A DNA stretch of 64,000 nucleotides from the NCBI RefSeq assembly GCF_052857255.1, contig NC_135498.1, forward strand, positions 158,829,124-158,893,123, written 5' to 3'. Of this stretch, positions 7,079 through 64,000 are shown in pieces. The first letter of the stretch is position 1. Every line of letters starts with the position of its first letter. Origin of the DNA: Amblyomma americanum. Its lineage: Eukaryota > Arthropoda > Arachnida > Ixodida > Ixodidae. The notes under the pieces were generated by a model. It was not told the origin of the DNA and ran no database searches. It saw only the letters and a list, made by a program, of their open reading frames with translations. The translations under genes and the position numbers were made by a program.

Positions 7079-7136
7079 GCTGGAAGCAGAGGGTAACGTG
7101 CGGCTTCTTAGTTCCAGGGTGGACGGGAACGTACCC

Positions 7137-7152: not shown

Positions 7153-7154
7153 AT

Positions 7155-13240: not shown

Positions 13241-13425
13241 TGGAATGAAGAAGATGAACCAGCCCCGAAGCCAACGACGACGAAGTGCTCGCGCCGCCGG
13301 TTGGATGCTCGTGCTGGACGGAACACTGCCGCTTGTGTCTGGTCTCTCGGCTCTCTGCCTCGTAGATTGCCTGTGCCAAGGTCTTCGTAGCCGGCGCTTC
13401 CATCGTGCCAATAAACCGCTCTACA
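13241..13425 (+). repeat. 5' LTR of Ty3 element 2
   Basis: 185 bp, TGGAATG to CTCTACA. An AATAAA polyadenylation-like signal lies near its end (13410-13416). Confidence 0.93.
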
Positions 13426-13427
13426 TT

Positions 13428-13445
13428 TGGTGGAGATTGCTGTGT
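13428..13445 (+). other. Primer-binding site of Ty3 element 2
   Basis: TGGTGGAGATTGC begins two bases after the 5' LTR. The leading TGG would pair with a tRNA CCA end; the tRNA is not identified. Confidence 0.5.
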
Positions 13446-40700: not shown

Positions 40701-41309
40701 CATTGTAAAGACAGTGTGCGCAAGCGCAATACTTCGCGTGAGGGCAACGTCAAGGTCCGGAGTGACTACGTAGGGGCCATCAGGGACAGGGGGAACAGAT
40801 GAGAAAGAAATGTAAGTTGCGGCTTGAGGCGGTAGACGGACAAAGTCGACAGCACAAAGACGAGGTACAACTGGGGACGGCGACTCAGCAGAAAGAGGAA
40901 GGTCAAGCTGGACAACACTGGTAGCGCAGTTGATGAGGGCTGAATGCTCAGACAGGAAGTCGAGGCCAAGAATGACGTCAAGAGGGCACTGGTCCAGAAC
41001 AGAGAATAGAACGGATGTATGGCGGCCGGATATGGTCACACGGGCTGTGCATAGTCCAACCACAGAAGGCGTTCCGCCGTCGGCAACGCGGAGAACGGCT
41101 GTGGGTGCAGGGTTCAGTACCTTTCTGAGGCGGCGTCGTAGGGTGGACATCATGACGGACATTTGCGCGCCCGTGTCGATCAGGGCTCTCACAGGGACTC
41201 CATCGACATGAATAGCGAGCAAATTGTGGCGTGCGCGAAGGGCTAAGCGAGGATTTTGGGACTGGGGCTGTACTGCAGCCTCACCTCCAGACACTGCAGC
41301 GTCTAGTTT
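37785..41309 (-). pseudogene. pol: Ty3 element 3 Pol with a single in-frame TGA
   Basis: The frame is open from the gag overlap (AAA CTA GAC, -1 to gag) through protease (ALIDTGAQMSV) up to TGA at 40590-40592. It then continues in the same frame through RT (YLDDVVVF), RNase H (TDASGYGIG), the integrase zinc finger (HLGVSRTYARVRHRFFWPG, CDLCQRRK) and core (TDRGRYFLS) to 37785. The stop falls in the protease-RT linker, so it is one mutation away from an open frame. All catalytic motifs I could check are present. Confidence 0.87.
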
Positions 41310-42475
41310 TCAGCTTGCGAGCGTCCGTTGGGGCCAGGAGATGAGCGACGGCGTAGGGCCGAACGAGACTGCCGACGCAGGGGGGACGGGGAGCGGCTGG
41401 AGCGGGAAATCTGGCCGTCAACGGTAGCACTCTGCTGGGCTGGAGGGGGCGTGAAGTGGCGGGGCTGGTCATTGTTGCGGTGAGAGCTTAGATGACTGTA
41501 TGTGCTACGACGAGACCAATAATTGCGACAGTGACGGGAGATGTGGCCAATGCGGTGGCAGAGGAAACAAATGGGTCTGTCGTCGGGTGTCCGCCAGTCG
41601 TTAGGGTTACGGCGACGTGGAGCGAAGTAGGAAGGTCGTTCAGGAGCAATCGCAGTGATGTCGAGTGGTGATGAAGGACGCACAGGGCTGACGGGCTGGA
41701 GACCAAGGTTTGCAAGCTCTTGACGGACGACGGCTTGTACCATCGAGATGGTGGGCAAGTGGTTGTCGCCATCACGTAGAGGCAGGGAGGCAGGGGACAT
41801 AGCTTCGAGTTCGCGTCGAATGATGCGGGTCACATTTTCTGGAGGCGCAGGAGTTTGCCGGTGCAGCAGGTCTTCACATGAGGAAGTCGCAGCCGTGTTG
41901 GGGAGGCGTGTGTACGGCTGACTAATACGTCTGCTTTTAGCTTCCTCGAAGCGGCGACATTTCTTAATAATGCCGTCGACTGTAGTGCAGTTCTTGCAGA
42001 CGAGCAGGTTGAAGGCGTCGTCGGCGATCCCCTTCAACACGTGACCCACTTTGTCAGATTCGGGCATGTTATTGTCAACTTTGTGGCAGAGGGCCAACAC
42101 GTCTTGAATGTAGGAAACATAGGATTCCGTAGACGTTTGAGCTCTGGACGCAAGCTCCCTCTTAGCGGCGAGTGTTCGGCCGAGCGGCCGTCCAAACAGC
42201 TCGCGCAGTTTCTGCTTGCAGACGTCCCAGCTGGTCAAATCATCTTCGTGAGTCTCGTACCAGACGCGGGCGGTGTCTTTTAGATAGAAGATGACATTCG
42301 CGAGCATAAGAGTTGGATTCCAGCGGTTGTACGTACTCACGCGTTCATAAATGTTGATCCAGTCGTCCACGTCAACGTTGTCGGTGCCAGAAAACGTCCC
42401 AGGGTCACGCGGGGAAGAAAGAACGAGCGATGGCATTGCCGATTGTGATGTTTGCTGAGAGGCGTCTTGGGTCAT
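41303..42475 (-). CDS. gag: Ty3 element 3 Gag with CCHC knuckle
   Basis: About 390 codons from the ATG at 42475 (MTQDASQQ). The capsid-type domain (FSGTDNVDVDDWINIYERV) and one zinc knuckle, CFLCHRIGHISRHC, are followed by a Ser/Arg-rich tail. The end reads GAA AAC TAG with pol entered in the -1 frame, like the other two elements. Intact as an ORF. Confidence 0.85.
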   Translation of the reverse strand: MTQDASQQTSQSAMPSLVLSSPRDPGTFSGTDNVDVDDWINIYERVSTYNRWNPTLMLANVIFYLKDTARVWYETHEDDLTSWDVCKQKLRELFGRPLGRTLAAKRELASRAQTSTESYVSYIQDVLALCHKVDNNMPESDKVGHVLKGIADDAFNLLVCKNCTTVDGIIKKCRRFEEAKSRRISQPYTRLPNTAATSSCEDLLHRQTPAPPENVTRIIRRELEAMSPASLPLRDGDNHLPTISMVQAVVRQELANLGLQPVSPVRPSSPLDITAIAPERPSYFAPRRRNPNDWRTPDDRPICFLCHRIGHISRHCRNYWSRRSTYSHLSSHRNNDQPRHFTPPPAQQSATVDGQISRSSRSPSPLRRQSRSALRRRSSPGPNGRSQAEN

Positions 42476-43443
42476 GGTGAGCGAAGTCAGCTGGCGGCCG
42501 CTGCGGAGCTCCGTCTTCGGTAGGCGTAGAGGAAAGCCACACCTCCACCAAAATATCAATGCCTTATTAAGGATTCAATAATTTCATATCGATCTCTTGC
42601 AGTCTGTGATTATTAATAGATAGTCTTCTAATTGCATTCTCTTAACGTCAGGCGCTACCTCAAGGCCCTGTCCTAGGTATTTTCTTCTACCTAATATACA
42701 TCATTGGCCTGCCGGAACACCTTTCCAGCAATATCCGCATATTTGCGTTCGACTGCGTGATCAACCGGCCTGTTAATAACATTAATGATCGAAATTCTCG
42801 TTAGAATGACTTTCAGGTTGTCGAAAACTGGGGATATGTTGCCTAATGACACTGAATTATCCTCAACAAATACATGATCATGTAGTCTCTCACGGCAGGC
42901 ATAACCCGTTTTCCTTCTTATACGGAAATACAAGCTAACCAGAAGAGCTGATTAAATCGTACGGTTACTTAGATATCACCGTAAGTCACGACGCATTTCG
43001 GAGGGAGAATGTCTTTAACTTAATTTCATCTCCAAATAAAGTCCTGCGGCTTCTGAAACATAATTTATGTCATTCAAATAACGCCACAAAAACTACTCTA
43101 ATGCTACACAACGATACAACAAAAATTAATATAAGCATCTCCTGTTCAGAGCCCGCACCAACAACACCTCGTCGGTGCATATCCAGCCGTACAAATTCGC
43201 CTGTGCGTATATTCACACAAATGCAGTGTGCTATCTTTGTATTTACAGTACCATTTAGTGAGTCTTCCTTGACATCGCTCCATCGCCACCCTACCTCTCC
43301 TCTATAAATTTTATTTCAGCCCACTGGTTCAAGAACCGTAGAGTTGAGCAGCTCCGCTACGCATTGCCATCGCGCCTGCCATCCCTTTCAGGTTACTGCA
43401 CCTCGCGCTTACACCGTAACCGTCTCAGCGTTTTTTTATTTTT

Positions 43444-46692: not shown

Positions 46693-47139
46693 GTACGTCC
46701 GCAAAAACATGCGGGGGGCGAAGCCGAAACAAAGAAAATAACGGGTAATTACTGCAGTCGGTAATGCGAAGTTTGAGCGCAGCTCGTCACACGCCACCTG
46801 CCCCGGCTGGCAGATGGCGTGTCGCGCTGCTTGTCACCCTCCGCAATCATCCCCTGGCAGCCACCTCCTTGCTGTCCATTCCTCCGCTATCGCCGTGGCA
46901 GGTGGCATTTCGCTCTGCAATGTACTGTCAACACGCCACCTGTGACGCGCCTACACAAGAGACTTTTCTGGTGGCGTGTTACGCCTACTACGACGCTGAA
47001 AGGAGAAACTGGCGCCTATGAGCTGCCCTATAGAATAGGCTTAATATACATGAAGGGGCTGAATACACAGAATAAATTCTGAATGGACAGATCGCTTGGA
47101 TACGTTTTCCAGTAACACGTCGTGATTGACTAGGGAACT
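46693..47139. other. Start of GMC intron 9, non-coding
   Basis: Donor GTACGT at 46693. CACGCCACCTG and its inverse CAGGTGGCA recur at 46790-46980. No gene seen. If the gene continues, the tRNA array and LINEs that follow lie in its last intron. Confidence 0.6.
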
Positions 47140-47244
47140 CGCGGTTGTGCATTCAGAACGCGTTCTTTATTTTAACCGGCACATGCCCATACATATGTAC
47201 TTCCGCCGGCAAAAAGTGCTATACACGTAATAAAAAAAAAGTAT

Positions 47245-47329
47245 TCTCCGGGTGAGGCTCGAACTCGCAACCCCGGCATTGCTCACGAGCACTGTCGTAT
47301 AAGTACCGTGCGCAAACCAATTGCGCCAC
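47245..47329 (-). tRNA. tRNA-Ile(UAU)-like 3' part, downstream of LINE A
   Basis: Starts GTGGCGCAATTGGTT next to the LINE poly(A), then CGGTACTTATA with anticodon TAT, an 18-nt putative intron, ATGCCG, and the T arm with GAGTTCGAGCCTC. Joined with 52154-52174 and counting the 15-bp duplication once it gives 91 nt. The acceptor has mismatches, so it is decayed. Confidence 0.7.
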
Positions 47330-47479
47330 TTTTTTTTTCTTTATTGCTTGACTTCGGCAAGAACCACAGTACACAAATACACTTACACGGCACAATGAAC
47401 AATACTTAACACTATCCGCCTTGTGGTTTGTGGCTTCGTCATATTAAAACTCACAACTCTCTAAGCGTCACCAAAGGCT

Positions 47480-50400
47480 CTACTCTTTCGAGCCACTCAG
47501 GAGCTTCAGGAGCAAGTTTCTGAATTTCAGCATACACTCCTGAAAATAGATCCGCGCTGGACGTGCATCAGGATCGCAATGATATCCTGCCATTCTGGAG
47601 TGCCAAATACAGTGGAGGCTCATTAGCATAAAAAGGTCGAATGGTGTCCCATCCTCACTCTCTGCAGGCAAGTACCGTATTCCATGAGAGTCTAGCGGAA
47701 ATTCCTTTTTTAAAGTCCCCTGCAAGATGTCCCAGAAGTATACCCCCTCCCAACAATGCAAAAAAACGTGATCTATTGTCTCTGGTTTTTTACAGGTTGA
47801 ACAATGTGATCCCCAAGGTAGAAATAAATGCTTCCCCTCCAAAAATTTCTTTACTGGTAGTGTTCCGGTATGTAACTTAAAGAAGAATGTTTTTGCACTT
47901 GGCGGCACCTGCATCGCCTTCACACGCTTAAGTACGTCGCGTCCCAGGCCTCCATTGTATACGGCCCTGTACATAGGTTGTGGAAGAACTACATCGCACA
48001 AATCCCTATACAACTTCTTCCTGCTAACAGAAGACAAATACTCATATGAAAACCGAACAGATAGGAATCGAACACTCGCGACAACCTCTCTAAAGTAACA
48101 AAAAATACGTCCCGATAAACTTTCGGTTGAGACAATAAAATCCGGCAGTGCATTTACAAGCCTTAATTGGCACACAGTGCGCAAAAACGGATCACATACA
48201 TCACACGCAAAAAAAAAATCTGCTTACGATCTGCCGTACAAATAAGTGCCCAAGACTCAGGCCACCTTCCTTGACCCGCATAAACAAATTCGTCCGGCTG
48301 CATCGTTCCCAGCCCGCAGCCCACACAAAAACGGCAAAGATCCGGTACAGTGACTGTACGTTCATCCTTGCACAATGCAACACTTGCGTCACGTACCACA
48401 ACCTAGACATAAAAAACAGATTACACACTGTGGCCCTTGCGAAATTGACAGATGTTGCACTTTCCACCTCTCTACCTTTTCACGCGTGGCTTGCGTCTGT
48501 TCTCTCCAGTACGGTTCGCTATCGCGATAATCGTCTAGTGGGACGCCCAAGCACTTTACTGGAGTCGTCACCCAGGACATGTTTGCAAAATGGTCGGGTT
48601 TCGTTGGCCATTCTCCGTGCCAAAGCCCCAGGGACTTTGACCAATTCACTTTACTGCCTGTGACTTTGGTGAATTCTTTTACACATGCCACGGCCTCGGT
48701 TACACCTTCCCGATTCACTGTAAACCCTGCGACATCCGCATAGGCCAGCAGCTTAACTTCTGCCGCTTGAAGCTGGAAGCCACGAATTTTTTTATTTTGC
48801 ATGATATTCAAACACAACGCTTCGATGTAAATGCAGAATAGAAGGGGGCTAAGGGGACAACCCTGGCGCACCGAACGCTGCAGGACGATGGGGGCCCCCA
48901 AACTCTTATTTACAATTAATCTTGTCGTGCAGCTCCGGTACGCCAAGGCCACTCCCTCGCCAATAATGGACCCTGCATTTACATGGTCGAGTATGCAGAA
49001 CAGGATTTCGTGTGAAACACAATCAAATGATTTCTCAAGATCTAGCTTAAGTATGGCTACACCGCTATTAGTATGATCACAACACTCAAGCACACACCTC
49101 GCTCTATGAATATTGGTATTAATGGAGCGTCCCTTGATCCCACACGTCTGGTGAGGACCGACTATATCTTGAATAACTGACTGTAGTCTCCGGGCTAAAA
49201 TCTTCATGAAAACTTTATAATCTACGCTTGTGAGTGAGATAGGACGATATGCTGTGACCGGTTGTAACTTTTCTGCTTCATCATGTTTAGGAATTAACAC
49301 TGTGTGGGATTTACCGTAAGACGGAGGCAGTTCACTTACTTTGTAGGCTTCATTATACACTGCTGTCAGTACTGACACTATTTCGTTTTCATATGCTTTG
49401 TAAAAAGCCGCACTTAGTTCATCAGGTCCAGGTGATTTTCCAAGGTCCAAATTTTCTGTCGCATGCTCTACCTCTGGCGCAGTTATCGCCAGCTCCAACC
49501 TTTCTTTCTGTTTGTCATCTAATCGCGGTAAAGCGCCAAGAAACTTTTCCTTGAACGCGCTCACATCCACTTCTTGCTTCGCAAACAACACCTGATAATA
49601 TACAAGAAATGCCTGCTGGATATGACCGCTTTCTCCAGATAACGCCCCACCCCAATCAATCTTTTCAATGTGGTTTCGCTGAGCATGCGTTTTTTATATT
49701 CCTAGCGCTCGTTTTGACGGTGTCTCCCCAGCGGCTACATCTTGCGCCCTAGCCCGCACAAGCGCGCCAGGATAGCGTTCTTCTTCGAAGAGTTCAATCT
49801 TGCGTTTTATTTTTCTAATGTCGTCCATCCACTTTCCACGCTCTTCGCTTTCCTTTTCGACAAGTTTAGCCAGTAAAGATCTTAAATTTTCTTCCTCACG
49901 CTTCTCCTCTTGTCGTATACAGCTTGACCTTTCGATCGCTGCTATCTTTATTTGCTGTTTGCAAAGTTCTCACTGCTGCCATACTTTCAGTTCCCCGCTC
50001 GTCTCTAATTTTCCGATTTCTTCATTTACTTTCCTGCTAAAGATGCCGTCTGTAATCATATTATTTAATTTCCACATCTCCCAAGAACACTGATTTCCTC
50101 TTTTCTTTGTCCCTATCCCACACTCCACTAAACAATGATCATAAAATGATACCGGTACTACACTGTAGGTACTGAATTTTGAAATAACATCCGGCGACAC
50201 ATAAATGCGATCTAGCCGTGCATGGCTGGACCGCTGAAAATGTGTGAACCTCACAGAGCGCTCTCCTTCTAAACATTCCGCCACATCATTGAGATTGCAC
50301 GTCGCTATAACCTCTGAGAGTGCCTCAGTGTTTCTGTCCCTAAACGCCCGTGCACTGGTTTTATCACAACCCCTCAGAACGGAATTGAAGTCACCCATGA

Positions 50401-50828
50401 TGATCAGGGATTTCTCACACATTAAGTACTTTTGTAGGTTTTGAAAAAAAAAACTGTCCTTTCATCCACCGCATTTGGAGCGTGCACACAAATGATGCGC
50501 CAATATGTTTTGTTGTACACGAAGTCAACCAAAACACACCTACCTGATGGACACGCCATATATCCCTGAACCTCAAGTCCCGGTAAATTCTTAATGAAAA
50601 TGACACAGCCGCAGAAGTGCATATAGCGTGGGACACTACTGCAAAATACCTAGACGTGAAACGTCTCACCATGTTCCCGGTCTCATCTTCCCCGTCAATT
50701 TTCGTTTCCTGCACTGCCAGGACGTCAATGTCATGCTCAGTTAAAATGCGGTATACCTGGCTCTGCTTCTTGCTTGCCAGTCCCCTGACCTTAAGTGTAC
50801 CGACTTTTATGGGGGACGCAGGAGCCAT
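47480..50828 (-). pseudogene. LINE A ORF2: APE endonuclease, RT, zinc-finger end
   Basis: From ATG at 50828 (MAPASPIKVG): endonuclease with VQETK, GDFN, ARLDRIYVS and DH motifs, frameshifted near 50620 and again near 50420. RT (48389-49591) has YRPISLTSVDYK, LDLEKSFD and RQGCPLSPLLF, but the catalytic YADD reads YADV: one Asp is missing at about 48740. The C-terminal part (47480-48184) has C-x2-C and H-x4-C (CSTCKKPETIDHVFLHC). Several frame breaks separate the blocks. RT activity should be lost. Confidence 0.85.
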
Positions 50829-50879
50829 TTTCATGCAGAAGAAAGAGGCCGGGAACATGGTGCTTACCATTCCCGTCTA

Positions 50880-52112
50880 GCGCGTGGCTAGACGAAGTCT
50901 GACACCGGAGCCATCCGGTGCTGGTTCCAGGCCTGGCTGCGGGGGCGGTTTGTCGAGGGTTCTCCTCTCCGTCGACACATTAGGTCGTGGTCGGGTGGAT
51001 GGCTGCCGTCCTTGGGTCGTTTTTGCCGGCGGCTCCTCGACACTGGGGGCTGCCGCCTTGTCTCCATCGGCTCCGGTCTGGGCGTGTGGTCGCTTCGCTG
51101 GGGCAGGACCACTGGTAGTACGGGCGCCGCTTATGTGATGGTCCTCGTTCGGAGTAGCTGGCTCGGTTTCTTGGAGCGCTGGCGCGCTTATTGCATCTCT
51201 CTTGCCTCCATCCCATTTTTCGAAGATTCTGCCCCTTCAGGCTTCCGCCCACCATCGCTGCTGGAGGGTCCCGAAGAGTCCGTCGCACCTGCGTGCTTTT
51301 CGGGCTCCCCTATGCCTTTTGCAGATTCCTCGGCTTCGGCTACGTCCATCAGGAGTTCCGCAGAGTCGTCTTTCGACACAGCACCCGTAGCCACCACATA
51401 AGTGTGGACACAGTCGGTATCCGCGTGAGCGTACCGCCGACATTTCGTACAGCGGGGAACTTTACATTCACGCCGCACGTGGCCCGTACCGTGGCAGCGC
51501 AGGCACTGCATTGGACGTCCCGGTGCCACGACAAAAGCCAACTCTCCGGTGACGCGTGCCTGGTGTGGTAGGTCATCCACTTTCAGACCGGGCTTCAACT
51601 TCAGTAGGACAGTCCTTGTCGTTGAGCTCTTGTAATTGACGCCTTGGATCCGCCATCGCTCTCGCGTAACGTCTGTCACTTTGCCAAATGCCGCTAATGC
51701 CGTCCGGATGTCGTCGTCGGCCACACCATGAAGCCTCCAGTGTAGCCGCAGCTTTACCTGCTGGTCTTCCGGGTCGATGATGAGGCAGCGGCGACTCTTA
51801 ACTTGCAGATCATTGAAGGCGAGCAACTTCTTTGCTGCCTCCGTGCTCCGCAGGGTAACCGCCCACACATAGTTGATTTGGTACGCCCCCAACGCGACCA
51901 CGTCGGGGAGCGTACCGGTCTCGGCCTGGGCGTCGCGGAAAACCTCGACGCGAAACGGCCTCGCTAGCACGTCTCCGTGAAGAAAAACTGTTGAAAATAA
52001 CACGTCCTGTGGGCAGCGTCGACAAAATTATCTGGTACTCCTTATCTTCGCAGTCATCAATCCTGTTTCCGCGGCCGTCGAAGGCCGCTGTCGCCGCTCC
52101 GCTGGAGCCCAT
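50880..52112 (-). pseudogene. LINE A ORF1: zinc-knuckle RNA-binding protein
   Basis: Start ATG at 52112 (MGSSGAATAAFDGRGN). A frameshift near 52000 moves the reading to the frame that runs to 51188. That frame has an RRM-like middle (VTLRSTEAAKKLL, LRLHWRLHGVADDDIRTAL), then three CCHC-type segments (CLRCHGTGHVRREC, CTKCRRYAH). The C-terminal tail continues in other frames to about 50880. Two breaks in all. Confidence 0.8.
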
Positions 52113-52153
52113 GATACTGCGATCCGATCAGCTCGGCTGCCGGAAGCAGAATG

Positions 52154-52174
52154 AACCAATTGCGCCACTGGGGA
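52154..52174 (-). tRNA. tRNA-Ile(UAU)-like 5' fragment, upstream of LINE A
   Basis: TCCCCAG acceptor strand, then TGGCGCAATTGGTT (A box), cut at the LINE 5' end. Confidence 0.75.
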
Positions 52175-52281
52175 GATGGCGGCTGAGCACTCAGAAGGCG
52201 TTCTGTATTTTAACCGACACATGCAAATAGATTTGTACCTCCGCCGGCAGAAAGTACTAGACAAGTAATAACAAACAGCAT

Positions 52282-52364
52282 TCCCCACGTGAGGCTCAAA
52301 CTCACAACTCCGGCCTTGCTCACGAGCACTGTCGTATAAGTACCAGGTCTACCCAATTGCGCCC
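52282..52364 (-). tRNA. tRNA-Ile(UAU)-like 3' part, downstream of LINE B
   Basis: Begins GGGCGCAATTGGG after the A-tail, then GGTACTTATA with anticodon TAT, the putative intron, and a T arm with GAGTTTGAGCCTC. Diverged from the other units. Confidence 0.65.
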
Positions 52365-52437
52365 TTGGTTTTTTTTTTTGTTTCCTGTTCTGCGGTCCGC
52401 AACAGTACATGCTTACACATGCACAAATAAAAACAAT

Positions 52438-55400
52438 TTAAAAGGCGCTTGCCGGTCTTTGGCGTGCGCCGGTGTTTAAAAGTGGTTCAAATTTGACAAG
52501 AGCGTCTAACACCGGCAGCCAGTCTGGCTGCTCATTGATTGCCTTACACACTTCGCGTATGAAAGTAACACTTTCAATGAAGTACTCTCGAGCAGGCCTT
52601 GGGTTCAAATCGGCATGATGCACAGCCATCCTAGTGCGCCATATACTGTGGAGGCATAGGGCCATAATCATATCATGTGACACCCCTCCTTCATTAGCGG
52701 TAGGGAGAAAGCGGATGCCGTACGGCGTATTTGGCAAGTCCTTCTTTATGGTGCGTTACAGTAAGTCTCATTCAAAAACCGCGTCTGAACAGTCAAGGAG
52801 TATGTGGTCAATAGTCTTCGGTCTTCTACAGTGCAAACAGTTTACAGTCCATGGGAGGAAGATGCCTTTTTGCTCGAGCCACGGCTTGACCGGGAGCGTC
52901 GCAGTGTGTACTTGAAAAAAGAAGCTTTTCACAGACGGCCTAACCGGCATGCGCTTTACCCTCTTCAAAACATCCTTACCCCCTCCATATGGATACAGTG
53001 AACGATACATTGGGACTGGCATATACACGATATCTTTTTACAGTTTCTTTCGGGTGACGTTGCTCAGGTACGCTACCGAAAAGCGTGCCTGAAGGACGCG
53101 GAAAGACAAAACAACCTCCCGTAAAAATCCGCACACACTTGGCCCGTTGGCCAGAGAAGATGAGACAACAAAAAACGGCAATTGATCACGCAGTCTGGTT
53201 TGAGTTACTTTCCGCAGAAATTCACCAGTTTGGTCTCGCACAAACAGAAACCTGGAAACCACTTGCTTCAAAAACAAGCGGACTAAACCCAGCCCTGCAC
53301 TCTTCAGTGCGCGAAACAGATTGGTGCGACTCGTGCGCTCCCATGTTGAACACCATATATACACAGCAAGCACTCGGTGCAGTTTTTGTATGCTCACTCT
53401 TGACGCACGCACGACCTGCAGAACATACCAAATCTTTGCTACAAGAAATGGGTTGCAGTCGGTTGATCTCGCAAATATATAGAGGTCCCGCCCTCCGAAC
53501 TTTGCCTTCTTTTCCTTAATACGTTCCGGCTTCGTGCTTCTGCGGTGTCTTTATAGTGCTGCAGAGGCACTCCCAGATACTTTGTTGGCGAGAGCGACCA
53601 TTGCGTATTTTCAAACACAGCTGGTGTGAGGCCCCATTCACCGTGCCAGATACCGACTGATTTGTTCCAATTGATACTACTTCCCGTCATCTTGCAGAAC
53701 TTGGTTGTCATTTTTATTGCGTTGCTGACACTGGGTTTGTCGACTCAGAAAATCACAATGTCATCCGCGTATGACAAAAAATTAACTTCGCTTGAACAAA
53801 AACTAAAACCGGTAATAGCCTTGTTCGTTATAATGCTTAAACAAAATGGCTCGCGAAACAAAGCAAATAATAAGGGTGACAAGGGACACCCTTGCCTAGC
53901 AGACGATATCACTTGGATTGAAGTGGTTGTCCTATTTATTATAATTCTGATAAAATTATTAGCGTAGCATAGCTCTATCCCCTGTAAAAGTTACTTGCCG
54001 ACGTCGGCGTGTTTCAAGACACTAAAAAGGACCTTGTGGTCGACTTTATCGAAAGCTTTTTCTAAATACAACTGAACCATTGCTACCTTCCCACAGTGCG
54101 CATCACAACACTCTAGAACAGTTCTTGTCACGTGTATGTTCGTTTCGTTAGGACGCCCTCTAATGCGGCATGTTTGGTGCGGTCCCACTAGCTCTTGTAT
54201 TGCCCGTTGTAGTCTTTTACCTAACACTTTCGCAAAAATCTTATAACCTCTGTTGGCCAGCGTTATCGGTCGGTACGCACGCACAAACAAAAGTGAAGTA
54301 GCGTCATCAGATTTAGGAATCAGCACCACATGGCTATGTCTAAAAGACGGAGGCAATTCTTTTGTGTTGTATGCTTCTATTACACATTGCAGCACCATTG
54401 CAACCTTGTCTTTAAAAGCTTTACAAAATTCTGAACCTAACCCGCCCGGTCCTGGTGCTTTTCCGGTGCTTAATTCATCAATAACGCTTCCTATTTCTGT
54501 TATGGTAATTGGTGCCTCTAGGCTTTCTTTCACTTCTAGCTTTGGCATGAGCTTTAAGAACTCTGTTTCAAATTCTTCTGCGAGTTCTGGTTCCCGGCTA
54601 ATCAGTTCACAGTAATAGTCTACGAAAGCGCACTTAATCGATTTGCTGTCTCGCACAACTGTGTCTCTGAACGTTATCGCTCTTATTTCGTTGCGTGCAG
54701 CATAGATCCTTTCGTCTGACATGGATCGCCGAGTCGGGGCTTCCCCCATGTACAATATTTCAGCACGCGCGCGTATTACCGCTCCACGGTATCTGTCTAC
54801 ATCGGTTATCTCAAGTTCACTCTTCACTTCTTTTATTTCTTTAATGAACCGACCCGGCGACGAAGCTTCTCCGCTCAAATAGCAGTCCAACTTTTTTTTT
54901 CAGTTCATTTCCTTTTTCTTTTTATTCTTACTCCGTACGCTGGCTCTTTCTATGGCAGTTATTTTCGTGTCTTGTTTGAATAGTCCCCACGCTGCAGTGT
55001 AGCTTTGCATCTTGCATGCAAGCACGTCGTTCATTTTGTCTTGCATTTTCTGTATAAAATAATCTTCATCAAGAATCTGAACATTGAACTTCCACAGACC
55101 CAGTTGAATTTAGGTGTTTTTTTTTACCCGACGTCACAGTGACGAAACTGTGATCACTAAAAGAAACGTTTTTACATCATAATTGGTACACGCAGGCACC
55201 AGTGTTGCCGAAACGTAAATTCGGTCTAATCTGGCGAGGCTGCCTCGCTGCTGATGGGTAAAGTATTGGAACGTTAGATTAGACATAAAGTAACCCACAT
55301 CTTCCAGTGCTCGGTCTTTTACACACTCGCTCAGAAACACCGAACTCGTGTATCGAACCGGTGCCTTTCTCGCTTGATCTGCTGATCTGCACCTACAGTT

Positions 55401-55853
55401 AAAACCTCCCAAGAAGACAATGATCCTTTCATGACTGTTTAGGTGTCGATCAGCACTTTCAAAAAACATTTTTCGTTCACTTGCGCTATTTGGAGGATAT
55501 AAACAAATAACTCGGAACTTATTTGCATGTAGAACAAACTCACACGTAATGAGGTGGCCACTATCACAAGTGTAAACACATTCTATAAACGCTTCAAGGG
55601 AATCTTTAACAAATAAAGGACACCCACCCGCTGTGCCAATAGCGTGAGAAATGCACACATTATACCGCGCTCTGAAAGGTTCCACCATGCGGTTCGTTGC
55701 CTCTTCGCTTTCAACTTTCGTTTCTTGAACAGCAATTACATCTAAGTCATATTCCATAAAAAGCCGACTAAGTTGGTATTATTTCCTACTATTAGACAAG
55801 CCGCGCACGATGAGTGTGCCCACGTGTAAACTTGTTTCTAGGTTGACTGCCAT
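52438..55853 (-). pseudogene. LINE B ORF2: endonuclease, RT, zinc-finger end
   Basis: ATG at 55853. Endonuclease block 55134-55757 (VQETKVESEEA, ARLDRIYVS). RT block 53991-54890 (GKAPGPGG, YRPITLANRGYKIF, QLYLEKAFDKVDHKVLF). The catalytic region reads SYADDIVIF followed at once by TGA near 53745, so YADD is intact but truncated. C-terminal blocks are at 52768-53028 (CLHCRRPKTIDHILLDC) and 52438-52737. Multiple breaks. Confidence 0.82.
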
Positions 55854-56055
55854 TTTACTTAAAGAAGCACCCGAACCATACAGTATCGCCTCCATTATTG
55901 GAATGCATCCTCGAAGTCGCATTTCCTACAAACTGCGCTGTAACTTGCGGCCTTCGGCTGATTGAGGCGGCGTTTCTTATGTTACCGCAAGCAAGTGGCT
56001 CTACCTTAGCCACTGTCGCTGGCCGGCGGGTTCGACACACTCACTTGGCATCGGG

Positions 56056-57255
56056 TCACGTCGGCGGCAGTGCCAACAGCTTCCGTTCGGGCTGAGGCTC
56101 GGGCGGAATTTTGGGTGCTGGCTTCAATGTTGATCTTCGGGTGGGCGTAGTTTTCACAGGCGGCTCCCCGCCGACTTCTTTGCTTGTGTCGTGCGTCTCG
56201 TTGCCGCTATCGTCGTGAAGCCGCTTCGCCGCGGTGGCACCGACGCTCGACATCACGACGTCTTCAGTTCCCTGCTGCGTGACGGTCGCAGTATGCGAGG
56301 CGCTAGTCATCTTTTTGTCATTCTTTTCGGGGTAGTCGTTGGTGGGCGTTGTAGCCCTCCCCGGCTTGCCCTCCTTTGTTGGTGCGCTCTGTTCCTCTTC
56401 CTCCGAAGGAGGAACCGGGCTAATGGCGTCTTGAGCTGGCGGTTCAGTCGCACCACCAGCTGCTTCTTCTGCGTCGGCCTGATCGATGAGGGGCTCAGCT
56501 TGGACTTCATTGCTTGCGACGAGTCCTGTTACATTGGCGTACGTTCGAGTACACTTGCTCTCATCACGGCCGTAGAGCTTGCGCACAGTGCAGCGCGGCA
56601 CTTTGCACTCTCGCCTAATGTGGCCCCGACTGTTACTCCTTAAGCATAACGGCGGGCGACCTGGAACGACCAGTAGGGCAGTACTTCCGGTAATACGTAC
56701 TTGATGTGGCACATACTCGAGAGTCAGTCCGGGTTTCAGTTTCAGGCCGACTATGCGGGTAGAAGAGCCCTTGTCAGAAATGCCTTGAACGCGCCAGTAT
56801 TCCCGAGACAGGTCAGTTACTTTCTCATGCGGGGCCAGCGCAGAACGAATACCTTCGTCTGGGGCGTTATGCAGCACCCAATGCGGTTTCAAAAGCATAT
56901 CCATGGTTGGTCGGGCAAATGACAAGGCATCGTTTCTCCTTAACTTTCACTTCGCCAGCTTACAGAATTTTCTTCGTCGCTTCTCGGCTACTGAAGATGA
57001 CCGCCCACACGTGGTTCATCTGAAACGCCCCCAGATCTAGCAGTTTGGGGAGCATCCCCAGGCGAACCAACGTGTCCCGAAAGTCTTCAACACGAAATTC
57101 CTGGCTTTCAAATCATCGTAAAGAAAGACAGTATTCAAAACGGACGCACCTGCTGGTAATTGCGGCAACACAACTTGATAATCCTGGGCATCTTGACCAA
57201 TAGACCTGTTTCCGCGGCCCTGCTGGGCCGCTGACACCGCTCCATCGGCGCTCAT
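56056..57255 (-). pseudogene. LINE B ORF1: zinc-knuckle protein
   Basis: ATG at 57255 (MSADGAVSAAQQGRGN). The frame breaks near 57040 and resumes at 56925, reading to the stop at 56056. RRM-like middle, then CLRSNSRGHIRREC in which the second knuckle Cys is replaced by Ser, and a long Glu/Pro/Thr-rich C-terminus ending in LLALPPT. Confidence 0.8.
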
Positions 57256-57296
57256 GAAAACGCGACCGTTCGCTAACGCGGCCAGAAGCAGTCCTC

Positions 57297-57302
57297 CTGG
57301 GA
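57297..57302 (-). other. Remnant of the tRNA acceptor upstream of LINE B
   Basis: Only a TCCCAG-like acceptor piece remains at the LINE B 5' junction. It is continuous with the spacer at 57303-57405. Confidence 0.5.
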
Positions 57303-57405
57303 AGCTCGGCACTCACAAGGCGTTGTGTATTTTAACTGGCACATGCCCATAGAATTTTGCTTCGACCGGCAGAAGGCGCTAGAAACGTAATAAAGAAAGG
57401 GGTAT

Positions 57406-57496
57406 TCCCCAGGTGGGGCTCCAATTCACAACCCTGGCATTGCTGACGAGCACTGTCGTATAAGTACCGCGTGCTAACCAATTGCGCTACTGAAGA
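57406..57496 (-). tRNA. tRNA-Ile(UAU)-like gene, not interrupted by a LINE
   Basis: 91 nt: acceptor TCTTCAG/CTGGGGA (pairs with two G-U), D arm AGCGCAATTGGTTAGCAC (one mismatch), CGGTACTTATA with anticodon TAT, an 18-nt intron after A37, then ATGCCA and a T arm with mismatches. Known metazoan tRNA-Ile(UAU) genes carry an intron at this place. Several stem mismatches make a working tRNA doubtful. Confidence 0.65.
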
Positions 57497-57600
57497 GCTG
57501 GCGGTTGAGCACTCACAATGCTTTCCGTATTTTATCCGGCACACGCCCATAGAATTTTGCTTTGACCGGCAGAAGGCGTTAGAAACTTAAAAAAGAAAGT

Positions 57601-57687
57601 CTTCCAAGGTGAGGCTCGAACTCACAGCCCCCGGCATTGCTCACGAGCACTGTCGTATAAGTAACGTGTGCTAACCAATTGTGCCAC
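57601..57687 (-). tRNA. tRNA-Ile(UAU)-like 3' part, downstream of LINE C
   Basis: Starts GTGGCACAATTGGTTAGC after the A-tail, then GTTACTTATA with anticodon TAT, the intron, ATGCCG, and GAGTTCGAGCCTC. Joins to 62637-62657. Confidence 0.7.
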
Positions 57688-57807
57688 TTTTTTTTCTTTA
57701 TTGCAGGTCTCTGTCAGCGCGCACTAATACAGGACGATACACAAACAGAAAAGAAAAATTAGGAAAACAAAAAGTGCTGTAGCATCCAGCTTTCTACTGA
57801 TGTCACT

Positions 57808-60800
57808 TTAAAATTCCTTCAGCACTGTCAAGTCTTCTACTCTCGGCAGCCACTGTGGTACACACTCAAGCGGTTTCAGCACTTCAACAAATCTGGATAT
57901 ACTCTCGCAAAAATACATCCGAGCTGGCCTCGCATCCGGATCGCTATGGAAAGCGATCATGCGGGAGCGCCATACAGATTGGAGTCCGGCCAGCATTATG
58001 AGGTCGAATGGAATCGCCTCTTCATTATTTATTGCTAGGTACCTAATATCGTGTGGGTCCAGTGTAAAATCCTTTTTGACCGTTCTATGCAGGACACCCC
58101 AAAAGTACACCCCTTCCTAACAATGTAGAAAAACATGATATATAGTTTTGGGCTGTTAGCATATCATACAGTCATTGTGGGTTAACAGCGCAACAAAGAC
58201 GGGACAAAGGCAAGACAAGCGCTTGTCTTTCCTTTGTCTTTGTTGCGCGGTTCACCCATAATGAATGCTTACCAACTCACCCAAACTTCAGCTTTACTCA
58301 ATATCATACAGTCAGCTCCCCACGGTAAGAAAAAACCCCTTGCTCTAAGAATATCTTTACTGGCAGTGTTTCAGTGTGTAGCTTGAAGTAAACGGATTTC
58401 ATGCCAAGCATCACCTGCATTCTCTTTACCCTTTTTAGAACATTCTGACCGGGTTCTCTATTATGCAAGGCTCTGTACATTGATTCCGGAAAAATGCTGT
58501 CACACACATCTTTGTAAAGTGTTATTTTCGCCGAAAAAGATAGTCATTCGAAAAACGCGCCGACAAAAATCCTACACTAGTACCCACCTCCTTGAAAAAA
58601 CCTGAAATGGATCCAGGCATCATATTTGGGCCAACGATAAAACTAGACAGAGCACATCTTAATATATCTTGGCACACTCGGCGTAAAATAGGATCGCTTG
58701 TGTCACTAAAAAACAATTATATGAACGAGCGGTCGCACAAAGAGATGCGACAGACTGAGACCACCATCCTTCACCCTTCTGAACAAATTCGTTCGGCTAC
58801 ACCTATGCCACTGCGATGCCCATATAAAGGTGGCGAACACTCTGTGCAGCCCTTGCACATTCAGCCGCGAGCAGTGCTGTACATGCATCAAATAGCATAA
58901 CTTAATTACAAAAAAAATCACATACTGTGGCCCTGGCGAAGAACGAAAGGGGAACCCCCTTCCACCTGTCTGCTTCTTCTCGCGTTTCGTGCAGCTGGTT
59001 ATCCAGAGGTCGTCATTGTTTTTGTAGCATTCCAAGGGAACACACAGGTGCTTCGCTGGGGTTTCACCCACTTCACGCCAGCAAATGTGTCTGGGGTTGT
59101 CGGCCATTCTCCATGCCAGAATCCTAGGCATTTACCCCAGTTAATTAAACTGCTTTTGAGGTCCCGGAAACCCTTCACTACTTCAACCGTTGCTGTAATA
59201 CTTTCTTGGTCGATGCTGCATACGGCAACATCATCGGCATATGCTAAGAGCTTTACTTTAGAAGCTTGCAGTTGAAACATGCGAATTGAATCATTCTGAA
59301 TAATAGCCAAACACAGTGTTTCAAACTAAAGAAAAAATAAAAGTAGACTGAGTGGGCAACCCTAGCGTACCGAACGCTGCACGGCAATGCCCCCCCCCCC
59401 CCCCCCCAAAGACTTGTTTATAAGGTTCGGGGTGCAATTCCTGTACGCCATGGCCACTCCCTCCTTAATAGTCGAGCCGACATTAATATGATCAAGAATA
59501 GCGAACAAAATAACATGCGGGACACAGTCAAAGGCCTTCTCTAGGTCAAGCTGCAGCACAGCGACACACGCTTTCATGATGTTACAGCACTCAAGCACGC
59601 ACCGCATCTTATGTATGTTACTCACTATAGACCTGCCCCTGATTCCACGTGTCTCGTGGCAGCCTACTAGGTCTTTAATCAGTGTTTGGAGTCTGCTCGC
59701 TAAAACTTTCATTAAAATTTTGTAGTCAACGTTAGTTAAAGAGATTGGCCTGCAATATGTCAAAAGGCTAAGTTTTTCTGCGGCATCAGTCTTAGCTATA
59801 AGAACAGTGTGTGATGTACTATAGGACTATTTTAAAGCTTTCATTTGGTAAGCCTCATTAAAAACTGCTGTGAGCACTGCAGGCAGCTTTTCTTTGAAAA
59901 ACTTATAAAACGACGTGGACAAGCCATCGGGCCAGGCGACTTTCCGTTCTTTAAGTTTTGAATTGCTTGGCACATTTCACCTTAAGGTATTGGTCGCTCC
60001 AAGAATTCTCTTATCTGATCGTCCAATCGCGGCATGTGGCCAAGAAATGTCTTTGTAAATCCGTCCAAGTCGGCATGATGAAACGCAAGTAGCGCTTGAT
60101 AATGCTCAGAAAACTCGCGCCCAATGCCCTCATTAACATCCAGCACGACGCCATTCCGCTCTATCTGAGCTATGCGGTTTCGTCGGGCGTTTGTATTTTC
60201 AAATCACAGAGCCCACTTCGTATGTACCTCGCCTGCTTTCAGTGAATTTGTACTCGCACACACCAACGCGCCTCGATAACGGTCTTCCTCGATCAATTTC
60301 AGTTTGTTTGATTCCTGACGTCGTCTTTGAAAATACCGCGCGTTTTCCACTACTCTGCTACCAATTTCTCCCATGTTGTTCGTAGCTCGGTTTCCTTAAT
60401 TTTTCATGGAAACGAATCGCACTGGCCCTCTCAATTGCTATGACTTTAATCTGTTGCTTGCATAGTTCTCCTGCTGACCCAGATTCAGGCTACTGTTTGG
60501 CTTCATTCTGTTAATTTCTTGTAATACTTTGGCACAAATTGTTGGTCGCTAAGTAGCTTAGAATTCCTTTTCCACATGCCACATACAAAGATTTTCAATT
60601 GTTTCTTTGTTCCTATTGCGCATTTAACCAGACAGTGATCAGCAAAACACACTGGTACAACATCGTAACTAAGGCACATCGGAATGGAATCCAGAGCAAC
60701 GTAGATCCGGTCCAGGCGTGCGTGGCTAGCACCCTGAAAATGAGTAGTTTACAGCGCGTGCGCTCTGTAGGCATTTAGCCACATCTGATAATTCCGCTTC

Positions 60801-61327
60801 GGCAACGACCTCAGCTAGTAAAGCCGTACTGCTGTCTCTAAAAGCTGTGCAGCTGGTTTTGTCCGAAGAGCTCAGCACGCAGTTGATGTCCCCCAAAATA
60901 ATGAGGCGTTTTTCAAGCATCCTGTACTGTCTAACATAGGCAAAAAAATTATATCTTTCCTCCACTGTATTGGGCGCTTACACACAAATCACCCGATATT
61001 CCGTTTTACATGAAAGGAAGTCGCACACTATTAATCTCCCAGAAGGGCATGACATGATGCGTTTGAACAGCAAGACCGGGCAGCAACTTTTTAAAAGAGT
61101 ACACACCCTGCCGACCACCCAACAGCGTGGCTGACGACGGCGTAGTACCTTGATGTGAAACGCAGCACCATGCTCCCAGTCTCCCCCTCCCCTCAACTTT
61201 TGTCTTCTGAACAGCTAGAATGTCAATGTCATTGTCTGTTACCAGCCGATACAATTGACTGTTTTCGTTAGTGTGCTAACCCTCTGACGTTCAACGTAGC
61301 TACTCATAGAGACGGTTCAGGAGCCAT
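57808..61327 (-). pseudogene. LINE C ORF2, multiply broken
   Basis: ATG at 61327 (MAPEPS). Endonuclease pieces at 60978-61254 and 60726-60965 (ILGDINCVLSS). RT pieces at 59362-59763 (CRPISLTNVDYKILMKVL, LDLEKAFDCVPH) and 58999-59310, which keeps the catalytic AYADDVAVC. C-terminal pieces run from 58716 to 57808, split by the nested insertion. Stops and frameshifts throughout. Confidence 0.82.
58175..58314. mobile_element. 140-bp hairpin-bearing insertion with 14-bp target duplication
   Basis: ATATCATACAGTCA flanks it at 58161-58174 and 58301-58314. Inside, arms GCGCAACAAAGAC and GTCTTTGTTGCGC enclose an almost perfect inner stem (ACAAAGGCAAGACAAG against CTTGTCTTTCCTTTGT, one mismatch). The rest is single-copy-like tail. 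The long duplication suggests reverse-transcribed insertion; the hairpin is unusual for a SINE. Confidence 0.7.
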
Positions 61328-61379
61328 TTAGGTTTGCAGTAGGACGGAGGCGCGAAGCACGGTGCTTACCTTTAGCATC

Positions 61380-62597
61380 TAGCATAGCTCTAGACGCCTC
61401 CGGGGCCGTCCGATTGGCTGCTCTCGCCTTTCGACGGGGGTGGTTTGTCGGCAGGTTTTCTGTCCGCGTTGACGTTTGGTCGCGGCTTGAAGGTAGGCCG
61501 CCGTCCTTGCACCGCTTTCACTGGCGGCTCGTCGACGCTGCTTGCGAGCGCCTTGTCGTCGTGGTCTCCGGAGACTTCGTGGGGGCGTTTCCTTGCTGTA
61601 CCGGTACCCGTTGTAACGGAAGCGCCATTGGAAAGCGGTTCCTGGCCCTTAGACGGTAGAGACGGTAGTGCTTGACTACTCGCTCCACTTTTGTCGAGGT
61701 CCTGCTACACCGGTGCTGGACCAGGCAACGGCCGACACGGACGGTCCGCACTTATGTTCTGGATGCACCAGCGAGGCCTGACAGCTCTGCCAACGCAGTA
61801 GGCACCGGCTCACCAGTTCATTTCGCCGCGTCCTCTGCCTGGGTCGCGTCCATTAAGTGCTCGGCCTCATCCCTTGCCCCCTGTCTCATTGCCGAGGCAT
61901 ACGTACGGATGCACTGGGAGACCTAGTGTTCGAAACGCCTGCAGCGCGGCACCTTGCACACTCTCCGGGTGTGGCCAGTGCCGTGACAGCGCAAACAGTG
62001 CATCAGACGACCGGGAGCGACGAATAAGGCCAGTTCTCCTCCAAACCGTATTTGATGCGGCAAATCTTCAACTGTCATGCCGCTCTTTAGCTTCAGAACG
62101 ACCGACCTCGTCGTGGAGCCCTTGTCACTCACACCTTTCACACGCCACCGCTCTCTGCTAACGTCCATGACAGTCCCAAATGCTGCTAATGCGGTCCCCA
62201 CGTCCTCGTCGGCCACGCCGTGCAGCAGCCAGTAAAGCCTAAGCCTCACCTGCCGATCCTGCGGGTCGATGATGACGCAGCGGCGTTTCTTCATCCTTAA
62301 AGGCCAGCAGCCGCTTTGTAGCCTCCGCGCCGTTAAGTGTGACTGCCCACACGTGATTTACCTGGTAGGCTCCCAGGGCCACGAAGTCCGGCAGGAAACC
62401 AGTAGGCAAGAGAGCATCTTTTAAATCTTCGACCCTATAGCGCCCCGCTCAAAAGTCGCCGTGCAAAAACGCGGTGTTCATAACGATGATTCCTGTTGGC
62501 AGTTCGGGCAGTATCAGCTGGTAATCGGTGTCGTCGCTATCGGTGATCCTGTTTCCACGGCCAGCAAGAGCCGCTATCGCGATCCGCCGTAGCTCAT
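61380..62597 (-). pseudogene. LINE C ORF1: zinc-knuckle protein, broken
   Basis: ATG at 62597 hits a stop after seven codons; the conserved GRGNRITDSDDTDYQLILPELPTG is read in another frame. The 61923-62294 block keeps RLYWLLHGVADEDVGTALAAFG and CLRCHGTGHTRRVC. Confidence 0.75.
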
Positions 62598-62636
62598 GAT
62601 TCTGCATCCGCACCGAACGGTAGCCGGTAGTAGAAT

Positions 62637-62657
62637 AACCAATTGCGCCACTGGGGA
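62637..62657 (-). tRNA. tRNA-Ile(UAU)-like 5' fragment, upstream of LINE C
   Basis: TCCCCAG then TGGCGCAATTGGTT, cut at the same base as in the LINE A junction. Confidence 0.75.
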
Positions 62658-62717
62658 GCTAGCGGTTGAGCACTCAGAACGCGTTCTGTATTTTAACCTG
62701 AACATGTAAATTGATTT

Positions 62718-62888
62718 TATGCGTTGCATATTGCAATCACTCAGTTCAGCCCTCGGGCGCGGCCGGGCAGCCACCAAACCACGTGACGTGACGTCACGAC
62801 AGCCGGAGGAAAAGCTAAGCCCCAACTCGCGCGGTCGCGCGCGGCCGCAGCCACCACCTGATTCCCGCTCCTCACGCTAGGGGCGCTG
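62718..62888. other. GC-rich non-coding stretch with palindromic CACGTGACGTGACGTCACG
   Basis: Replaces the expected tRNA spacer after about 62716, so an unrelated sequence joined here. It contains CACGTG next to TGACGTCA. No gene recognised; it may be the end of another repeat. Confidence 0.4.
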
Positions 62889-63204
62889 CGCCGGTCAGGT
62901 ACCAGGGGATAGACACTTTGTGCATTGCGTGCGGAGAGGAGGAGGAAACGGCTGAACACTTGATACTTTTCTGTAAAGGGCTTCACCCTACAGTGGAAGG
63001 CAGCGGGGCTGACTTACCCAAGGCATTGGGGTTTAGGGATAGTGAAGGGAAAGTGGATTTTAAGAGGTTAGAAGTAACCAAGCGAAGGTTATCTGATTGG
63101 TGGCTAAAAGCAAGACAGGAGTAAAATTTCACAAGACATGGCTAGGTGGCTTGAGCCACCGCCCGATGTAAAGGGTTCAGCCGTATCCATCCATCCATCC
63201 ATCC
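62889..63204 (+). mobile_element. LINE 3' end with (ATCC)n tail
   Basis: Open frame to 63124 ending YQGIDTLCIACGEEEETAEHLILFCKG, the C-x2-C...H-x4-C terminal finger of a LINE ORF2, then WWLKARQE and stop. A short 3' UTR precedes five ATCC units at 63185-63204. Truncated at its 5' side. Confidence 0.7.
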
Positions 63205-64000
63205 AGATGATATCTCGATTATGTTGATAAAGAAGTTAGGACCAAAATCCAAGCAAACATTAATACAGGTAGTGAACAAAATGATAGTGGATGAGAAAGT
63301 CCCCGATGAATGGCGATTAAGTAGAATGAACATGATATATAAGGGAAAGGGGGACAAAGCAGACGTAAGTAACTATCGCCCCATAACAGTGACATCTGTG
63401 GTTTACAGGGTGGTGATGCAAATTATAAAGGATAGATTGCAGGCTTGGGTGGAGAACGAGGGGATGTTAGGGGAACTACAGAATGGGTTCCGGAAACAAA
63501 GGAGGTTGGAGGACAATCTATTTTCATTGACACATTGTATAGAAATTGCGGAAAAGGAACATAGGCCCTTATTGCTAGCATTTCTGGATATTAGGGGAGC
63601 CTATGACAACGTTACTCAGGAGCATTTGTGGGACATATTGGGCACATTGGATGTGGAAAATGGAGTAATTAATCTTTTAAAAGATATATATATATATATA
63701 GAGGTAACAGAGTGCTCATTAATGGGAAAAAAATGTATCAGGGCCTGTAGAGATACAGCGGGGGCTTAGACAAGGATGTCCTCTGTCCCCTTTGTTGTTC
63801 ATGTTGTACCTGCAAGGTTTGGAGGCCAAGCTAGAGGGGAGCGGACTAGGCTTCAACCTATCTTTTTTCAAGCAAGGGGAATTGATTAAACAGACATTAC
63901 CGGGACTAATATATGCGGACGATATAGTGATAATGGCTGACAACAAGGAAGACCTGCAGAAGTTGTTAGACATATGCAGTACAGAGGGAGATAGATTAGG
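63205..64000 (+). pseudogene. LINE reverse transcriptase, 5' truncated, runs off window
   Basis: Begins directly at the (ATCC)n tail with IMLIKKLGPKSKQTL, then YRPITVTSVVYRV, LQNGFRKQRRLEDNL, AFLDIRGAYDNV. A TA-repeat expansion (63686-63702) shifts the frame and an A-run near 63728 shifts it again. RGLRQGCPLSPLLF and the intact active site LIYADDIVIM follow to the window edge. It resembles RTs of abundant tick LINEs; clade not fixed. Confidence 0.75.

Follow-up and report, generated by a model that had tools for sequence, protein, structure and literature searches.

A 64-kb stretch of the 2.56-Gb genome of the tick Amblyomma americanum (contig NC_135498.1, positions 158,829,124 to 158,893,123; hereafter "the window") carries a tandem array of units that resemble the gene for tRNA-Ile(UAU), and several of these units are interrupted by long interspersed elements (LINEs). 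The array and its three elements, called LINEs A, B and C, all lie on the minus strand. The units are about 195-200 bp long, are 77-85% identical to one another at the nucleotide level, and each hold a tRNA-Ile(UAU)-like gene with an intron. Unit 2 is uninterrupted, whereas LINE C splits unit 1, LINE B splits unit 3 and LINE A splits unit 4. The 5′ flank of unit 1, consisting of spacer and the first ~20 nt of the gene (62637-62720), is followed by LINE C (57688-62636) and then by the remainder of the tRNA-Ile-like gene (57590-57687). Unit 2 (57405-57496) is an empty site. LINE B (52365-57293) precedes the 3′ part of unit 3 (52269-52364), and LINE A (47330-52153) separates the 5′ flank of unit 4 (52154-52230) from the rest of its gene (47232-47329). 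All three elements are approximately full length. Spacer and the start of a fifth unit come next (47131-47231), and this unit breaks off near the shared insertion point (~47131), where ...TTCCCTAG gives way to TCAATC. The array also extends past the end of the window, where a neighboring locus (L009) contains a better-preserved gene (Rfam tRNA, 51.2 bits at 1626-1717 of that locus).

The array genes are likely to be tRNA-Ile(UAU) genes, an identity that rests on the intron in the anticodon loop and on a likeness to vertebrate tRNA-Ile(UAU) that we presume, rather than on certification by a tool. Within the window, a tRNA finder made zero calls among the array units, and Rfam returned zero matches to them above its gathering score. 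The units are called decayed because they fall below this score of 29, with 19.9 bits for unit 2 and 21.0 bits for the 3′ part of unit 4 (47251-47329). ARAGORN types unit 2 and the rejoined unit 3 as Ile(tat) under relaxed settings only; for units 1 and 4 after rejoining, and for the gene in L009, it chooses another intron position and arrives at Ala(agc). The lengths reported by ARAGORN are 92 nt for unit 2 and for the rejoined unit 4, and 96 nt for the rejoined unit 1 (relaxed settings). A first-pass annotation of this DNA had described four tandem tRNA-Ile(UAU)-like units, three of them split, with rejoined genes that match the whole unit. The layout holds, as does the match in length for the rejoined unit 4, whereas the Ile(UAU) identity can be called likely only.

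The 15-mer GTGGCGCAATTGGTT stands directly 5′ of LINE A (52168-52154) and of LINE C (62651-62637), and the A-tails of both elements run into the same stretch again, exactly at LINE A (47329-47315) and with one mismatch at LINE C (57687-57673, GTGGCACAATTGGTT). The arrangement at both sites is ...CCCCA, then GTGGCGCAATTGGTT, then the LINE ending in ...AAAA, and then GTGGC(G/A)CAATTGGTT.... These 15-bp target duplications span approximately nt 7-21 of the tRNA and include the A box. The 3′ junction of LINE B lies at most a base or two from the point used by A and C, its tail being followed by GGGCGCAATTGG..., and its 5′ junction joins ...TTCCCAG to GAGGACTGC without a target duplication; no copy of the 15-mer was seen in that 5′ flank. 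Thus, the shared 5′ junctions, the shared tRNA position after the tail and the 15-bp duplications first reported for A and C are confirmed, but the further proposal of three hits at a single base position is exact for A and C only.

The three LINEs are far more diverged from one another than are the units they split. Their ORF2 products share 52% (A and C), 42% (A and B) and 38% (B and C) amino acid identity, and the DNA of A and C is 64-70% identical where alignable. In a maximum-likelihood tree of ORF2 (39 rows), the three occupy different, well-supported places: A groups with the genomic copies L029, L031, L034, L044, L045 and L048; C clusters with P0001, P0002, P0005 and P0009; and B lies in another clade with P0052 and P0057. 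Given this divergence and these split positions, A, B and C are, as judged from their sequences, three old, separate insertions. Segmental duplication of one insertion, the alternative origin that the first-pass annotation had raised against its own account, is ruled out by the same two observations. The elements also differ in decay. Relative to P0001, the ORF2 region of LINE A has 5 frameshifts and 2 stops and that of the strongly decayed LINE C has 17 frameshifts and 13 stops; LINE B has 4 frameshifts and 7 stops relative to P0027. LINE C also contains a 99-bp inverted repeat (58169-58267), perhaps a small later insertion.

In LINE A, open reading frame 1 (ORF1, ~51191-52120) shows CCHC-like knuckles by eye, and the ORF2 region (~47480-50850) includes apurinic/apyrimidinic (AP) endonuclease motifs (by eye), a reverse transcriptase domain and zf-RVT. 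Pfam detects RVT_1 (1.8e-27) and zf-RVT (28.6 bits, cut-off 27.5) in this element and gives zero matches for its ORF1 and endonuclease piece. The 1133-aa ORF2 of copy L029 matches Exo_endo_phos (3.1e-15) and RVT_1 (1.9e-31), with zf-RVT at 24.3 bits, under the cut-off, and its best match in the PDB is human LINE-1 ORF2p (2.5e-74, residues 9-866). These ORF2 domains, the poly(A) tail and target duplications of variable length (12-20 bp) identify the elements as L1-superfamily LINEs of the AP endonuclease type, in agreement with the initial call. The elements had first been read as Tx1-like. A search of vertebrate proteins for the Tx1 or L1 clade gave no informative names and no named Tx1 sequence was found, the nearest non-tick rows being unnamed or generic, and a search of viral and genome contigs with ORF2 alignment A1 yielded zero matches.

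Copies beyond the window were surveyed in the same genome by using ORF2 of the relatives P0001 and P0052 as queries. The places scored came from ~70,000 first-look candidates, and the best 41 of each search, 82 in all, were inspected at the 3′ junction. They are therefore the copies closest to the queries, for the most part intact and probably young, and were picked by protein and not by target. A strict match was defined as a tRNA or 5S gene with ≥90% identity over ≥30 nt after the poly(A) tail (AATAAAGAAAA...), scored on the sense strand only against a library of ARAGORN calls from these loci plus one 5S gene. A strict match is therefore an ARAGORN-callable gene, and junction positions (first gene base = 1, preceding base = 0) depend on the first base that ARAGORN assigns. 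Rfam was applied to 70 of the 82 loci, and both strands were read. By tail count, the genome holds 108 P0052-family tails.

A tRNA or 5S gene matches strictly behind the tail in 65 of the 82 copies (31/41 in the P0001 set and 34/41 in the P0052 set), and in 62 of these 65, and thus in 62/82 overall, the junction falls within −4 to +10 relative to the gene start. From Rfam tables read by eye, a tRNA or 5S gene starts at the junction in 51 of 70 loci. Matched genes read the same way as the LINE, and among the loci given to it Rfam found no antisense gene at unmatched junctions. If 20,000 tRNA and 5S genes are assumed, each with a 30-bp target, these targets make up 0.02% of the genome and about 0.02 of 82 junctions would be expected to fall in them by chance; against 62 observed, no finer test is needed. 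The target preference suspected at the array is therefore real, but the phenomenon is broader than first proposed: a clade of tick LINEs homes on the starts of genes transcribed by RNA polymerase III (Pol III). With 62 of 82 junctions at a set distance from genes whatever their sequence, these elements behave, by position, as Pol III-homing retrotransposons.

The genes hit comprise 5S and tRNA genes of 18 anticodon types: Arg-ACG, Asn-GTT, Asp-GTC, Cys-GCA, Glu-CTC, Glu-TTC, Gly-GCC, Leu-AAG, Leu-CAG, Leu-TAA, initiator Met, Ser-CGA, Ser-GCT, Thr-CGT, Thr-TGT, Val-AAC, Val-CAC and Val-TAC. An entry typed "Ile-tat" (L114) is a unit of an initiator-Met array with an altered anticodon, and two of the three Ser-CGA targets are without the long variable arm. 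The window itself begins (1-2010) with four near-identical 498-bp tandem units whose tRNA-like gene, typed Ser(CGA), also has no long variable arm; the LINE target in L039 and L041 closely resembles it.

Junctions in these genes are concentrated at the very start. The 52 tRNA junctions have a median at nt 2 and lie at nt 2 or earlier in 42 cases, so that the tRNA behind the tail is usually short of at most its first base; where that base is A, as in initiator Met, the A-tail supplies it. The 13 junctions in 5S genes lie at nt 5 (n = 5), nt 7 (n = 7) and nt 46 (n = 1). Both survey sets use common points (nt 5 and 7 of 5S, nt 2 of initiator Met, nt 1 of Val-AAC), even though their members L029 and L082 share only 50% amino acid identity in ORF2. 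The P0001 set includes 30 full loci, and target duplications, with lengths and junction bases read by eye, were resolved in 24 of them (all but L032, L040, L047, L048, L050 and L051); they measure 12-20 bp with a median of 16; L033 was entered as 16 bp exact (19 with one mismatch). In these 24 loci, the base after the junction is always a purine and the base before it is a pyrimidine in 23. Since an A at the junction could equally belong to the tail, the preceding base is never A by construction and the expectation is 2/3, which gives P = 0.0008. This value is optimistic, as flanks are alike in L039/L041, L042/L043, L052/L053 and L054/L055.

Almost identical elements occupy different genes. 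ORF2 DNA is 99.73% identical between L052 (5S) and L054 (initiator Met) and between L079 (Val-CAC) and L082 (Leu-TAA), 99.6% between L051 (Cys) and L058 (Asp), and 99.1% between L029 (Gly) and L030 (initiator Met). Therefore, the range of targets does not come from separate families with one gene each. In a 5′-end alignment, LINEs A and C of the window begin with the same element sequence as copies that follow the gene starts of Gly, Met, Val, Arg and Asp tRNAs and of 5S.

These data bear directly on the original proposal that the lineage is specific for tRNA-Ile(UAU) through an endonuclease that recognizes the A-box/D-loop region. In its general form, this explanation holds that the enzyme reads tRNA-Ile(UAU) or the A-box sequence TGGCGCAATTGG, much as the LINEs Mutsu and Keno are described as having a single target each. 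The possession of GTGGCGCAATTGGTT by both A and C would fit such an enzyme, as would a tRNA-Asn-like gene hit in L001/L010 that carries the same 15-mer. However, relatives in the same genome sit at at least 18 anticodon types and 5S, near-identical elements sit in unlike genes, and even the six copies that group with LINE A in the tree have mixed targets. The A box of 5S genes lies near nt 50, far from the insertion point at nt 5-7. Positions vary among tRNA junctions as well, from −4 to +16 with one at 40, and so have no fixed relation to the A box at nt 8 (PMC5391098). Since 5S genes have no sequence in common with tRNA genes at the insertion point, neither a tRNA-Ile sequence nor an A-box sequence can be the target. 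The 15-mer occurs at 125 places in the genome, including 3 within the window, and among 27 sites viewed outside the window, 25 are gypsy-like (by eye), one lies behind a LINE tail and one lies in the tRNA-Ile(UAU)-like array. We therefore consider a sequence-specific lineage with a single target very unlikely, and the survey of other copies rules out targeting of tRNA-Ile or the A box by sequence. One array that is hit repeatedly can mimic sequence specificity. As a separate caution, the occurrences in the 25 gypsy-like loci (L002-L008 and L011-L028) are unrelated to the LINE target and are a trap for pattern counts.

Apparent specificity could also arise if arrays had amplified a few insertions, or if insertions elsewhere had been purged. 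The copies are indeed clustered, with the 82 forming 37 clusters that are separated by more than 400 kb, 11 copies from both sets lying in one 5S array region (G000:C4:58338388-58584744), and L042 and L043 sharing their flanks. However, 26 of the 37 far-apart clusters have a strict match, these matches involve many gene kinds, and near-identical copies each have their own duplications. Removal thorough enough to clear insertions from the remainder of a 2.56-Gb genome is also unlikely. Of the explanations considered, this one strikes us as the most improbable.

A third possibility is that the endonuclease reads DNA shape or the open bubble at Pol III starts (melting or bendability) without a protein tether. 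Junctions at or just inside the gene for both promoter types, together with the pyrimidine-purine step at 23 of 24 sites, are consistent with this model. On the other hand, pyrimidine-purine steps are ubiquitous, and so an additional address would be needed; moreover, the Pol III-homing elements that have been studied use protein contacts (PMC8632968, PMC5391098). We judge this model unlikely.

What the targets share points to another address. tRNA and 5S genes have no common sequence at the insertion point and differ in where their internal promoters lie, but both assemble TFIIIB and Pol III at the start, which suggests the initiation complex as the address. Thus, it is highly probable that a diverse LINE clade integrates in sense orientation at the 5′ ends of many kinds of Pol III genes via the Pol III initiation complex, and tethering to this complex would best explain the data. 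We propose that a component of the complex bound there (TFIIIB, TFIIIC or Pol III) recruits the element ribonucleoprotein, that the AP-type endonuclease then nicks the template strand at a nearby pyrimidine-purine step around the gene start, and that target-primed reverse transcription begins at this nick. The other strand would be cut ~16 bp downstream, and the tRNA gene that follows the poly(A) tail would thereby stay nearly whole. The window's tRNA-Ile(UAU)-like array would then be one fossilized instance of Pol III homing.

The 17 copies without a strict match comprise six with decayed genes, four in which LINE abuts LINE, one masked (L097), one with a distant gene (L088) and five with no gene. 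The six decayed loci (L031, L037, L040, L046, L048 and L092) hold tRNA-like stretches with a B-box-like motif. As a control, the same motif with at most one mismatch was found in 100 of 900 element-internal stretches and in exact form in 15. The evidence is therefore weak for L037 and L040, which match the B box only if a mismatch is allowed; Rfam, too, calls L092 a tRNA. In L067, L101, L110 and L117, a LINE copy directly abuts another LINE copy, and these tandems represent repeated insertion at one target. Traces of tRNA occur in the 5′ flank of L067 and in L101 and L117, where remnants of tRNA-Val or tRNA-Asp lie between or after the LINEs.

Several observations count against homing by way of the initiation complex. 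Five copies at four sites (L033, L038, L042=L043 and L081) have no recognizable Pol III gene at the junction, and the nearest tRNA gene to L088 lies 88 bp downstream. Three strict matches lie deeper in the gene (tRNA nt 40 in L080, tRNA nt 16 in L045 and 5S nt 46 in L032), and the points used in tRNA (nt 1-2) and 5S genes (nt 5-7) do not exactly coincide. Copies in arrays are not independent, in that many share tandem arrays and some may copy one insertion. The sample consists of best-scoring copies only, with one copy from the basal clade, and the contact with the initiation complex is a predicted one. The four geneless sites may be Pol III genes of an unfamiliar kind, or else hits away from the usual target. 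Separately, L033, L038, L042 and L043 have clean duplications.

The homing habit appears to be old. A basal-clade copy (L120, found with P0079) lies at tRNA-Arg(ACG), with a 16-bp duplication (TCGGGCCTGTGGCGCA) whose first base stands two positions ahead of the gene. As members of the A-like, 1146-aa and B-like clades also lie at Pol III genes, the most economical view is that the Pol III habit predates the split of these lineages and the basal one, the last being represented by one copy. Named relatives of ORF2 include proteins of Ixodes scapularis, Haemaphysalis longicornis and Rhipicephalus microplus. It seems probable to us that these elements form a tick-wide, still young LINE radiation that finds its sites through the Pol III initiation complex and inserts at gene starts while sparing the tRNA behind. 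This would be the first animal lineage of Pol III-homing LINEs known, and one that arose in a huge genome instead of a compact one, with "tick-wide" resting on one genome.

Mutsu, Dewa and Keno belong to the Tx1 clade and carry an AP endonuclease. They are described as single-target LINEs of 5S genes, a tRNA-Leu spacer and U2 genes, respectively (PMC3706591). Like the tick elements, they find their targets among or beside small RNA genes; however, each has one target by description, whereas one near-identical group of tick elements hits many genes. NeSL-1_TV (tRNA-Pro), LIN15_SM (tRNA-Arg) and LIN25_SM (tRNA-Glu) are tRNA-specific non-LTR elements (PMC4640811) that differ from the tick LINEs in being NeSL-related, in using a restriction-like endonuclease and in being tied to one tRNA each. 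Dada DNA transposons insert inside tRNA, small nuclear RNA and 5S genes, some at the A box and including tRNA-Ile (PMC3706591, PMC8869645), but they use a DDE transposase, make 6-7 bp duplications and have their own target genes in each family.

More similar in habit are TRE5-A, TRE3, NLTR-A and NLTR-B, non-LTR elements that home on tRNA genes (PMC5911963, PMC5006619), and the Pol III-homing LINEs that we found in print come from social amoebae. Insertion is reported 40-54 bp upstream of tRNA genes for TRE5, 40-150 bp downstream for TRE3 and 2-6 bp upstream for NLTR-A. In contrast, the tick junction lies at or just inside the gene, with a ~16-bp duplication that usually reaches the A box in tRNAs, and the median tRNA junction at nt 2 sets the tick LINEs apart from the TRE5 family. 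When TRE5-A was tagged, its insertions covered 384 of 405 tRNA genes as well as 5S genes; its ORF1 protein interacts with TBP in vitro, and its distance from 5S genes is ~9 bp shorter than from tRNA genes (PMC5391098). The tick insertion point in 5S is likewise shifted toward the gene body (nt 5-7 versus nt 1-2 in tRNAs). Ty3 of yeast homes on Pol III start sites via TFIIIB by contacting TBP and Brf1 (PMC8632968). Ty3 and the tick LINEs thus have the Pol III start site as a common address, but Ty3 is an LTR retrotransposon that uses an integrase, makes a 5-nt duplication and inserts 2-3 bp upstream of the start, an unrelated enzyme chemistry. A review of Pol III-homing retrotransposons treats fungal and social-amoeba elements, and the words "animal" and "metazoan" are absent from its main text (PMC5911963). 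A paper on choanoflagellate elements (PMC6875170) and PMC6036668 have no bearing on these LINEs. In the open-access literature, with subscription papers and Repbase Reports outside its scope, our search showed, among the matches listed, no animal LINE that homes on Pol III genes generally and neither Tx1 nor tRNA elements from ticks.

Homing on tRNA genes has been discussed as an adaptation to the compact genomes of yeast and amoebae (PMC5006619). The hosts of the amoeba elements have compact genomes, whereas the tick LINEs live in an animal genome of 2.56 Gb. The occurrence of Pol III homing in several LINE lineages of such a genome, with intact and near-identical copies, means that the compact-genome explanation needs to be widened. 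The tick elements also separate two senses of "target-specific," namely recognition of a DNA sequence and recognition of the machine bound to that DNA, which one locus cannot tell apart. An animal LINE with an address given by protein at multicopy genes, and with the tRNA left nearly whole, would make a practical study system, and in ticks the fossil insertions could serve to map Pol III occupancy.

The window holds further retroelements outside the array. Three Ty3/gypsy-like elements (by eye) with long open frames, one of 1183 aa, lie at 2253-7198, 13366-18309 and 37785-42574. A reverse transcriptase fragment on the plus strand (63155-63769; Pfam RVT_1) is weakly matched by tick LINE proteins (best 89 bits).

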